From the IMG/VR virus record IMGVR_UViG_3300044641_005590, positions 1 to 21,212 of that record: DNA of 21,212 nt; one strand, written 5' to 3'. The translations under genes were made by a program, and so were the position numbers. Each line of letters starts with the position of its first letter. Within the stretch, counting starts at the first letter, position 1. This DNA is from a virus. Below, piece after piece: positions 4,626 through 13,189 of the stretch. The notes under the pieces were generated by a model. That model worked only from the letters and a program-made list of their open reading frames with translations, was not told where the DNA came from and made no database searches.

Positions 4626-4795
4626 TAATCTCTATATACCCTATAGTACCATGTCATAACTAAGAATGGGTTAAACATTTGATTTATTTTTAAAATATTT
4701 TTTCAATCAAATAGCCTATAAACCTTGAAATGCAGTACTAGACCAGCTTTCAAGAGATTGTATGGTTATAACATGATGCATTAAATATATTTAAT

Positions 4796-5047
4796 CTACA
4801 ACTTCTCTTGGAATTTTGCCTTCTCGATTTTTGTTAGATTCTCAGCAATACTTTTTATCTTATAGTTTTTGGCTTTCAATATATTGACTTCTGCTTTTTT
4901 ACTGTTCCATTCGTCCAGCTGCTTCACTAAGTCTTTTATTTTTTTCTCTTGATCTCTCGTCGTCTTTAACAACTTGTCGATAAACTCACGATTGCACTTA
5001 ATCGTTCTCTCTAAATGCTTGATTTTATTCTCTTGCTCTTCTGACAT
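4796..5047 (-). CDS. small coiled-coil protein, 83 aa
   Basis: The protein is almost entirely charged helix with hydrophobic residues at heptad-like spacing (KIKHLERTIKCNREFIDKLL, KKIKDLVKQLDEWNSKKAEV), ending KIEKAKFQEKL; a coiled coil that probably dimerises. One Cys is at residue 18. It is the outermost leftward gene next to the divergent control region. The ATG at 5047 has only a weak purine stretch (TAGAAG) upstream, so translation may be modest. An AGCGAGGATT repeat lies 43 bases before the start. No family recognised. Confidence 0.65.
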   Translation of the reverse strand: MSEEQENKIKHLERTIKCNREFIDKLLKTTRDQEKKIKDLVKQLDEWNSKKAEVNILKAKNYKIKSIAENLTKIEKAKFQEKL

Positions 5048-5099: not shown

Positions 5100-5145
5100 C
5101 GAAAGGAAAGAAGTAATTACAAAGTAACTACATAATCAGATTGAA

Positions 5146-5169
5146 AACGCTATAGTGAACTATAGAGTC
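5146..5169. promoter_or_regulatory. CTATAG-N4-CTATAG dyad, copy 1
   Basis: Read on the minus strand: GACTCTATAG, TTCA, CTATAGCGTT. It aligns without gaps with the two dyads before the tail operon (12544-12567, 12572-12595), differing at only a few positions. The two CTATAG hexamers are 10 bp apart, one helical turn, so a dimeric protein could grip one face. It lies about 100 bp upstream of the leftward gene at 5047. Confidence 0.6.
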
Positions 5170-5424
5170 AAAATAATATAGAGTTATCTTGAGCAAAGTA
5201 CTGATTGTAGAGCCATTGTAGCGTTTGATTCAGATAACACGCAAAAAACATAGCAATATTACAGCAAATAGACACCATTATTTATAATCGCTTTAAACAA
5301 GAGCAAATAAACTATTGGCTGTGTTCACTGGTTTATTGGGTAATTCATACAGCATACAGGCACATAGCCGCCTTAGCTTCACTGATTATATTATTATCCC
5401 AGCCCCAGCTTCCTATTTGCCCCA

Positions 5425-5490
5425 ATAAGAGATAGCCGATAAAAAATGATAAGAGATAGCCGATAAAAAACATGATAAGAGACAGCCGAT
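5425..5490 (+). repeat. three iteron-like 16-bp direct repeats
   Basis: ATAAGAGATAGCCGAT occurs at 5425-5440 and 5449-5464, and as ATAAGAGACAGCCGAT at 5475-5490 (one change). Each is followed by an A-rich spacer (AAAAAATG, AAAAAACATG, AATGAG). The spacing is 24 and 26 bp. Evenly spaced direct repeats beside AT-rich DNA resemble replication iterons, but binding sites for a regulator would look the same. Confidence 0.65.
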
Positions 5491-5762
5491 AATGAGCTAG
5501 TTAATAGAAAAATAGCCAATTGCTTTAGACGGGGTTGGGGGGTGTACAGAGTCCAGCTTCCTAATCATCTTTAATCCCCACATACTAGAATCTCAAAATT
5601 TCAAAATCAAAGACCTTACTAAGCAATCAATCAAAAGCATCACAAGACTTCTTTAAAATCGTCAAGATTAAAAGAAAACTATATTAAAGCCTAATTATCC
5701 CAAGAAAGAAAACAAATCAATTTAAAGCGATTTGAACGGGCAATAAACAAAATTAAGAAAGT

Positions 5763-5772
5763 GGTATAGTGT
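5763..5772 (+). promoter_or_regulatory. rightward promoter element GGTATAGTGT
   Basis: TATAGT (5765-5770) ends 6 bases before the ATG at 5777, predicting a transcript that begins at the start codon. No Shine-Dalgarno and no good -35 are visible. Shares GGTATANTGT with elements at 6024 and 12600. Confidence 0.45.
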
Positions 5773-5776
5773 CTTC

Positions 5777-5944
5777 ATGGAAATAGAAGAAATAGAGGAT
5801 TTAAAGAAGCAGGCAAAGGTTATATCTGAGGCACGTATTGAGAATATGAGGGGGTATGACAAAATGGTTCAAGAAAAGAATTCTAATTTTGTAAACAATG
5901 CTTATAAAGCTCTTTATGGGAAGAATAAAGCGGGCAATAAATAA
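5777..5944 (+). CDS. small charged protein, 55 aa
   Basis: The ATG at 5777 opens a 55-codon frame ending in TAA (5942-5944). The protein begins MEIEEIEDLKKQAKVISEAR and ends in a basic tail (YKALYGKNKAGNK). It is probably helical with no membrane segment. No family is recognised. Support is the promoter-like TATAGT 6 bases before the ATG, matching two other transcription starts in the window, and its place as the first rightward frame after the control region. It could be an early or pre-late regulator. A chance frame cannot be excluded. Confidence 0.5.
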   Translation: MEIEEIEDLKKQAKVISEARIENMRGYDKMVQEKNSNFVNNAYKALYGKNKAGNK

Positions 5945-6041
5945 AACACCTTATTAAACCGAAAGACTAGAGTGTCTAATGCAGGCTAGTGAGAGCTAGG
6001 GGTATAAAGTTCCGCCGAGCGGTGGTATATTGTAATTACGG
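5945..6041 (+). promoter_or_regulatory. structured spacer and promoter before the late genes
   Basis: Contains CTAG-TGAGAG-CTAG (about 5986-5999), a CCGC-CGA-GCGG hairpin (6012-6022), and GGTATATTGT (6024-6033) whose TATATT ends 10 bases before the ATG at 6042. There is no T-run after the hairpin, so termination is unlikely. The promoter would give a leader of only about four bases for the first late gene. Sites just upstream of small-terminase genes can hold packaging signals; nothing here proves one. Confidence 0.4.
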
Positions 6042-6260
6042 ATGAGTGAATCTAAGCTAATAATGTATGGTTCCTATAGAGTTTCAAAGGATTATCCAGA
6101 TCAGAGAGTTAAACGTTTGCGTTATCTTGGTCCAATTGTGAAGGGTGGGGTTACTTGTTATTCTTTTGATTTATGTTTACCTAATGGAATTTTCAGAGAA
6201 ATATTGACAGAGGATCAAGTTAATAAATATATTGAATGGAAGCACTATGAGCGAATCTAG
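6042..6260 (+). CDS. hypothetical protein, 72 aa
   Basis: Basic small protein with a likely beta-rich core (RYLGPIVKGGVTCYSFDLCL) and a helical C-terminus (LTEDQVNKYIEWKHYERI). Not recognised. It has no clear Shine-Dalgarno; its TATATT promoter element is only 10 bases upstream, so translation may start on a very short leader. It overlaps the following small-terminase candidate by 14 bp, indicating that it is the first gene of the packaging operon. It might be an HNH-adjacent or terminase accessory protein by position, but no motif supports a specific role. Confidence 0.7.
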   Translation: MSESKLIMYGSYRVSKDYPDQRVKRLRYLGPIVKGGVTCYSFDLCLPNGIFREILTEDQVNKYIEWKHYERI

Positions 6261-11370: not shown

Positions 11371-11428
11371 CAATGAATCCGCTAGCGGGTAGTTCATTGT
11401 TTAAGAATCCGTGTTACGGGTAGTTCTT
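11371..11428 (+). ncRNA. tandem structured RNA hairpins in the capsid-gene leader
   Basis: Two successive hairpins have the same plan. Outer stem, single U, inner stem, apical loop, then GUAG on the 3' side and the outer stem again. Copy 1 (11371-11399): CAATGAA/TTCATTG outside and CCG/CGG inside with CTAG loop. Copy 2 (11403-11428): AAGAA/TTCTT outside and CCGT/ACGG inside with GTT loop. The stems differ while pairing is kept and the asymmetric U/GUAG internal loop is identical, which is covariation within one molecule. This indicates a selected RNA structure, perhaps for mRNA stability or protein binding. Confidence 0.65.
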
Positions 11429-12501: not shown

Positions 12502-12534
12502 AAACCCTCGGCATAAACCCCGAGGGTTTTTTTT
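12502..12534 (+). terminator. strong intrinsic terminator after the capsid gene
   Basis: AAACCCTCGG and CCGAGGGTTT pair over 10 bp around an 8-base loop, followed by a run of eight T. It lies 35 bases after the capsid stop codon and separates capsid from tail transcription. Confidence 0.93.
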
Positions 12535-12543
12535 ATTACCCAT

Positions 12544-12567
12544 AACTCTATAGCTGACTATAGGGTT
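12544..12567. promoter_or_regulatory. CTATAG-N4-CTATAG dyad, copy 2
   Basis: AACTCTATAG, CTGA, CTATAGGGTT: a 10-bp inverted repeat with one G-T pair. It sits between the capsid terminator and the tail-operon promoter, 28 bp from an almost identical copy. Confidence 0.7.
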
Positions 12568-12571
12568 TAAT

Positions 12572-12595
12572 AACTCTATAGTCCACTATAGAGTT
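12572..12595. promoter_or_regulatory. CTATAG-N4-CTATAG dyad, copy 3
   Basis: AACTCTATAG, TCCA, CTATAGAGTT: a perfect 10-bp inverted repeat with a four-base centre. It ends 6 bases before the TATAAT that precedes the tail operon, so a bound protein would cover the -35 region. CCACTATAGAG also resembles the core of T7-type phage RNA polymerase promoters. Confidence 0.7.
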
Positions 12596-12599
12596 TAAG

Positions 12600-12609
12600 G
12601 GTATAATGT
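12600..12609 (+). promoter_or_regulatory. tail-operon promoter, leaderless start predicted
   Basis: GGTATAATGT contains a perfect TATAAT (12602-12607). The ATG at 12614 begins 6 bases after it, at the expected transcription start. There is no Shine-Dalgarno sequence. Nearly the same element precedes the starts at 5777 and 6042. Confidence 0.6.
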
Positions 12610-12613
12610 AAAT

Positions 12614-13189
12614 ATGCTAGTAAACAGGCTTAATGTATTTAATTTAGCTTTAATGCAGTTAGGCAAAGATCCTGTAGTCGATGTTAATACTCATACTGTT
12701 GAGTTAGCGAAGTTAAGAGCAGTTGAGCAAATGGCTTTAGAATCTTTACTCCAATCTCATAGATGGGATTTTGCCATTCAGAAGCAGGAACTAACTTTTG
12801 TTCAAGATTTATTAAACGAGGAATTTATTAAGCTTTATTCAATCCCTAATGATTGTATAGAGATATGGAGAGTTTACGACGTTGAAGGCGAGGATTTAGA
12901 TTATTCAAAAGATAGCCGAGGATTAGCGACAAGTTCAGATAGGGTTTTTATCGAATATACCTTTTTGCAAACTGATTACGGGAAATATGATGCGACGTTT
13001 TGCGAAGCTTTAGCAATGCGAATAGCAGCTTTAGCAGCTCCATCAGTGCAGCATTCAGATTCTAAAACCGATTATATTTCAAGCACGGGGCAAAAGAAGC
13101 AGGCGGTAGCAGCAAGTAAAGCCATTGGGAGAAGTCAAAGGAACTGGGAGCAAAACACTACTTGGTTAAGAAACAGGAATAATTATTAA
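12614..13189 (+). CDS. tail tubular protein A-like adaptor
   Basis: Forms the ring joining portal to tail nozzle. At 191 residues it is close to T7 gp11 (196). The N-terminal NRLNVFNLALMQLGKDP and the LLQSHRWDFA motif (residues 45-54) are characteristic of the family, whose consensus includes a helix followed by an HxW-FA step. The gene sits directly before tail tubular protein B, with its TAA overlapping the next ATG by one base (TAATG). It is the first gene of the tail operon, starts 6 bases after a TATAAT box and has no Shine-Dalgarno sequence. Codon use resembles its neighbours. Confidence 0.88.
   Translation: MLVNRLNVFNLALMQLGKDPVVDVNTHTVELAKLRAVEQMALESLLQSHRWDFAIQKQELTFVQDLLNEEFIKLYSIPNDCIEIWRVYDVEGEDLDYSKDSRGLATSSDRVFIEYTFLQTDYGKYDATFCEALAMRIAALAAPSVQHSDSKTDYISSTGQKKQAVAASKAIGRSQRNWEQNTTWLRNRNNY

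Follow-up and report, generated by a model that had tools for sequence, protein, structure and literature searches.

CTATAG dyads as putative operators at predicted leaderless promoters in a clade of HTVC010P-like podoviruses

The stretch of DNA analysed here (the window) is 21,212 bases long and corresponds to the entire IMG/VR record IMGVR_UViG_3300044641_005590, which is a fragment of an uncultured HTVC010P-like podovirus. It carries a podovirus gene set of terminase, portal, capsid, tail-tube A and B and a lysozyme-bearing virion protein, and its capsid shares approximately 28% identity with the capsid of HTVC010P-type pelagiphages. The capsid gene is followed by an intrinsic terminator (12502-12529, + strand) composed of a 10-pair stem and a T run, which divides the head operon from the tail operon. 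The first gene of the latter (12614-13189, +) is tail-tube A-like (phrog_394, PHROG match 3e-28) and is predicted to be leaderless as it is preceded by a TATAAT-N6-ATG arrangement. Rfam gave no match at gathering scores. Among the other elements of the window is an ImmA/IrrE-type metallopeptidase (PF06114) encoded at 542-1027, for which no partner repressor was recognised within the window. The long non-coding stretch 5' of the terminase genes contains a direct repeat of about 25 bp in three copies (GATAAGAGATAGCCGATAAAAAACAT, 5425-5495), which are found in the related genome G005 too and are perhaps an origin or packaging site. Two small tandem hairpins (ATCCG..CGGGTAG) without an Rfam match are located in the capsid leader (11377-11421), and a similar hairpin pair (GTCCGAAAGGGTAGC) is present in the relative G007.

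Three CTATAG-N4-CTATAG dyads had been noticed in a preliminary description of this DNA, and direct reading of the sequence confirms each of them: aacgCTATAGtgaaCTATAGagtc at 5146-5169, aactCTATAGctgaCTATAGggtt at 12544-12567 and aactCTATAGtccaCTATAGagtt at 12572-12595. The hexamers are 10 bp apart in all three, with starts at 5150/5160, 12548/12558 and 12576/12586. The dyad at 12572-12595 is indeed a perfect inverted repeat, but its arms are 11 bp long (12572-12582 and 12585-12595) and not 10 bp as first described. The placement of the dyads in non-coding DNA also holds, as the comparison of occurrences within and between genes, which had been set beforehand, found 3/3 exact window dyads to be intergenic against our gene list. 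Single CTATAG hexamers show a similar bias, with 7 of 13 lying in the 10.6% of the window that is outside the listed genes. Markov simulations of the window (200 runs per order) yielded mean counts of 0, 0, 0 and 0.005 for orders 1, 2, 3 and 5 against the three exact matches observed, and the reversed pattern, which served as a control, had 0 matches. If 3 mismatches are tolerated, matches are no more frequent than expected by chance, hence the signal is limited to the exact sites. The dyads are real and conserved and do not arise by chance. Our own reading of the listed sites gives the near-palindrome TAASYCTATAGTNNACTATAGRSTTTA as the consensus over all of them, and the putative operator is about 26-27 bp in length.

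Two of the dyads precede the tail operon. The promoter-proximal putative operator (12571-12597, +) has the core CTATAGTCCACTATAG at 12576-12591, flanked by TAACT and AGTTTA, and precedes the tail-tube A gene in all relatives found to have dyads. The distal one (12543-12569, +; core CTATAGCTGACTATAG at 12548-12563) lies 28 bp further upstream and occurs in most relatives, the exception being G004/L013, which has the proximal tail dyad only. A TATAAT hexamer (12602-12607, +) is separated from the proximal dyad upstream by exactly 10 bp and from the ATG at 12614 by 6 bp, and the same dyad-N10-TATAAT-N6-ATG arrangement with exact spacing is present at tail-fibre genes of the relatives. The TATAAT-N6-ATG portion downstream of the promoter-proximal dyads had escaped the preliminary description. 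The hexamer is predicted to be a sigma-70-type -10 box, and the transcript should begin at the start codon and thus be leaderless. If the transcript starts at the ATG the dyad occupies positions -38 to -23, and the -35 region is without a good hexamer.

A TANNNT motif about 12 bp upstream of the start codon is the published signature of leaderless genes (PMC3160421), and a -10 motif next to an open reading frame has also been taken as their sign in a further study (PMC12340547). The same signature is seen here at the same distance and is enriched over other spacings: TATAAT-like boxes stand 6 bp before the ATG at 25 of 358 ORF starts compared with about 3 for each other spacing, in a pool of partly homologous genomes in which not all 25 are independent. 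Within the window such boxes are found exactly 6 bp before the ATG of operon heads at 5777, 8397 and 12614 (+) and at 5047 (-), and they recur in G005, G007, G014 and G016. Leaderless mRNAs are predicted from this pattern across the phage group. At 6024-6042 of the window a TATATT-N6 is followed by ACG where G003 has an ATG and a 199-aa gene, and this is apparently a lost leaderless start.

The scan of viral contigs yielded 21 capsid relatives. All 14 contigs (L004-L017) whose capsid is 93-100% identical and whose sequence continues beyond that gene have a dyad before the tail-tube A gene (14/14); L018 and L024 stop within the capsid gene. In six contigs of the clade that reach further right (G001, G002, G003, G004, G005 and G006) an additional dyad precedes a 441-aa gene that weakly matches the T7 tail-fibre N-domain. 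These relatives show the tail-fibre dyad in a region past the right end of the window, and it had escaped the preliminary description. In alignments of the proximal tail and fibre sites both hexamers and the TATAAT are invariant, and variation affects the S/Y/R/S positions of the flanks and, in the case of the fibre gene, the inner NN as well. No dyad is present in relatives at 53-72% capsid identity (G007, L019, L021, L022, G008). Of these, G007 (72%) has retained TATAAT-N6-ATG at the corresponding genes with no dyad beside it, which implies that the dyad is not required for this promoter type in general. In L014 an insertion (1080-1230) between the terminator and the dyads carries a different repeated dyad, TTRACTC-NN-GAGTTAA. 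G005 (35,758 bp) starts just past the early dyad and has early genes like those on the left of the window at its far end, and therefore appears nearly complete.

The third dyad lies in a divergent control region, where the putative operator spans 5145-5171 (unstranded; core CTATAGTGAACTATAG at 5150-5165) and has no TATAAT at the 10-bp spacing. It is exact in G006 (position 633 of G006r), and one half is degenerate (CTCTAT) in L062 and L005. The adjoining 83-aa gene (4796-5047, -) has a TAAAAT-N6-ATG leaderless signature and is 96% identical in G006r and more weakly conserved, at about 60%, in L005 and L062; it was not found in G019, G014 or G016. Rightward transcription would start from a leaderless promoter without a dyad (5765-5779, +), which consists of TATAGT-N6-ATG with an extended -10 (TGG). 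A non-coding element composed of an inverted repeat around AAGATAA...TTATCTT and TGATTGTAGAGCCATT adjoins the control region (5170-5215) and is conserved in two phage types, being present in G019 (31981-32040) and L079. The half-matching site reported earlier at 4632-4646 does exist (CTATATACCCTATAG), but it is probably not part of the operator set. It is absent from the output of a position-weight scan built from the dyads, and its - strand (TTATGACATGGTACTATAGGGTATATAGAG) resembles the early promoters ATGGTATCATAACAGTATG of G014 and ATGGTATAATAGAAGTATG of G019, so that we take it for a probable degenerate early promoter (ATGGTACTATAG, - strand).

Within IMG/VR the dyad and TATAAT in the N6-ATG context are found in this clade alone. 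The other exact matches are without that context; six of them look incidental and one is L054, an unrelated contig with T7-like virion genes and clusters of CTATAG between its genes. An operator search that included the flanks added G019 (42.7 kb) and L079, in which three dyads about 35 bp apart are located in a divergent control region. This is the only other close occurrence found, and the G019 array has no TATAAT at the 10-bp spacing. G019 differs from the clade in its structural genes and has an early module in common with it, and a 546-aa gene of the tail-fibre region is 97% identical between G019 and G006. The common early module and the near identity of this gene suggest a common host. 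The early module is also present in G014 and G016, which have no dyad. In an attempt to identify the host, GTDB genomes yielded no capsid relative.

The preliminary description had offered two explanations, operators of a phage dimeric regulator or promoters of a T7-type RNA polymerase. The former, taken as operators of a symmetric regulator that may be dimeric and of phage origin, agrees with what is seen: the dyads are symmetric, their sequence is conserved beyond the needs of pairing, they occur in intergenic DNA only and at several promoters, namely those of two late operons and the early control region, and at the late operons the spacing to a sigma-70 -10 box is constant. That they are operators of one symmetric regulator at leaderless promoters of the host RNA polymerase is given a probability of about 0.75. 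The latter, in which CACTATAG is the promoter core for a phage single-subunit RNA polymerase, draws on the similarity of ACTATAG to the T7 promoter core and on the intergenic CTATAG clusters in L054 with its T7-like virion genes, and is scarcely credible. T7 promoters are asymmetric elements of about 23 bp with no -10 box that start at the G of CACTATAG, whereas conservation of the dyads is symmetric and extends over both hexamers and the outer flanks, a TATAAT follows at a fixed 10 bp and the predicted start coincides with an ATG. Furthermore, no polymerase gene (PF00940) was found in five near-complete relatives of 31-46 kb (G005 with 35.8 kb, G003, G019, G014 and G016; the window itself is a fragment), in a search that scored T7 as the positive control at 9.9e-110, and both Skadi-1 and further pelagiphages of the HTVC010P type reportedly have no RNA polymerase and depend on that of the host (PMC10504331). 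An RNA hairpin that serves as a processing site or attenuator would likewise account for inverted-repeat arms as long as 11 bp, but this is very improbable for transcripts that would be terminated upstream of the dyad and are predicted to start downstream of it. The core sequence is invariant, and only 17/31 sites have Watson-Crick pairs at positions 1 and 2 of the palindrome flanks, with no co-variation; this fits a protein that reads DNA half-sites better than it fits a stem in RNA.

For the operators, the following mechanism is proposed. One two-fold symmetric DNA-binding regulator would bind the TAASYCTATAGTNNACTATAGRSTTTA operators, which at the tail and tail-fibre genes are at -38 to -23 of a host sigma-70-type promoter. 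This promoter has a good TATAAT but lacks a recognisable -35, and its mRNA is expected to begin with the start codon. In place of the missing -35 contact, the regulator would most likely turn on the tail and fibre operons, the second operator 28 bp upstream probably assisting via cooperative binding. Through the operator in the divergent region the regulator is probably coupled to early transcription or to its own production. A regulator that differs from this one in direction only would be a repressor, of phage or host, that sits on the -35 region and keeps the leaderless tail and fibre promoters off until late infection, with the early-region sites as its autoregulatory or early operators. 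The position of the site over the -35 region, the multi-operator array in the control region of G019 and the preservation of the promoter position without a dyad in G007 would all suit a repressor. Repression, however, has no need of exact 10-bp phasing to the -10 box at two promoters, and there is no -35 to make the promoter strong unaided, and it is for these reasons that activation is slightly favoured. One of the tail and fibre cassettes may have arisen by duplication of the other, and this weakens the fixed spacing as a sign of activation; if the dyads are operators, repression falls just short of even odds.

The regulator would be encoded by either the phage or the host. A winged-helix-like protein (G005 22090-22605; phrog_191, E=0.019) was rejected as a candidate since it is conserved in the dyad-less G014 and G016 (approximately 80% to G005) and most divergent in the dyad-bearing G019 (61%). 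Small ribbon-helix-helix-like proteins were rejected because they are present in dyad-bearing and dyad-less phages alike and their putative DNA-contact strands differ even though the operator is the same. Such proteins were recognised by eye in G005 (34899-35039), G016, G014, G019 and L062, several of them directly upstream of a DUF3987 primase-like gene, and four that were tested had no match in Pfam; a ribbon-helix-helix-like N-terminus is also fused to a longer protein at 1979-2758 of the window. The 83-aa gene beside the early dyad was discarded because it was not found in the dyad-bearing G019. No early gene is clearly exclusive to dyad-bearing phages, which makes a host factor possible. 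Two phage types of one host may both have co-opted a transcription factor of that host, which is compatible with activation or repression and is a reasonable yet somewhat less than even prospect; it would explain the same operator in two phage types that share the 97% identical tail-fibre-region gene (G019/G006), but GTDB species genomes gave no match to the dyad and TATAAT, a pattern stricter than a host regulon would need. The most far-reaching version, in which a symmetric factor of an undescribed family replaces the -35 contact and switches leaderless late tail operons of the host RNA polymerase without a phage polymerase, from an operator common to two virion types of one host, is speculative and rather unlikely to hold in full.

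The dyads bear on how HTVC010P-like podoviruses that have no RNA polymerase time their late genes. HTVC010P-type pelagiphages (proposed Ubiqueviridae) resemble the window in their homologous capsid (approximately 28%) and similar head-tail gene order, and only a few promoters were predicted in the Skadi study (PMC10504331). HTVC010P and Skadi-3 differ from the window in that they have neither dyads nor an enrichment of TATAAT-N6-ATG. For one such clade the dyad sites provide a concrete cis code made up of putative operator, -10 box and predicted leaderless start, and the operator may serve as a bait sequence for finding the regulator.

The dyad set is ordinary in kind and new in sequence, and among the papers covered by a literature search none combines CTATAG, operator and phage. 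Lambda CII-activated promoters have two short repeats one helical turn apart around a poor -35 and are transcribed by the host RNA polymerase. The dyads share the two short repeats at this distance around a poor -35, but are of other sequence, lie a few bp nearer to the -10 box and consist of hexamers that are themselves palindromic; for a CII-type mechanism an activator gene of that family should be distributed like the sites, and the winged-helix-like candidate is not. In T4 MotA-dependent middle promoters an activator site takes the place of the -35 next to a good -10, and the MotA box, at -30, is a single element without symmetry. The window is alike in having a putative activator site in place of the -35 and a good -10 and differs in the symmetry of the dyad, and neither MotA nor AsiA was found among the proteins scanned. 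The closest correspondence in layout of the start itself is with leaderless sigma-70 promoters, which have a TATAAT-like hexamer 6 bp from the ATG at the heads of operons (PMC3160421, PMC12340547), and to which the window adds a dyad over the -35 region.
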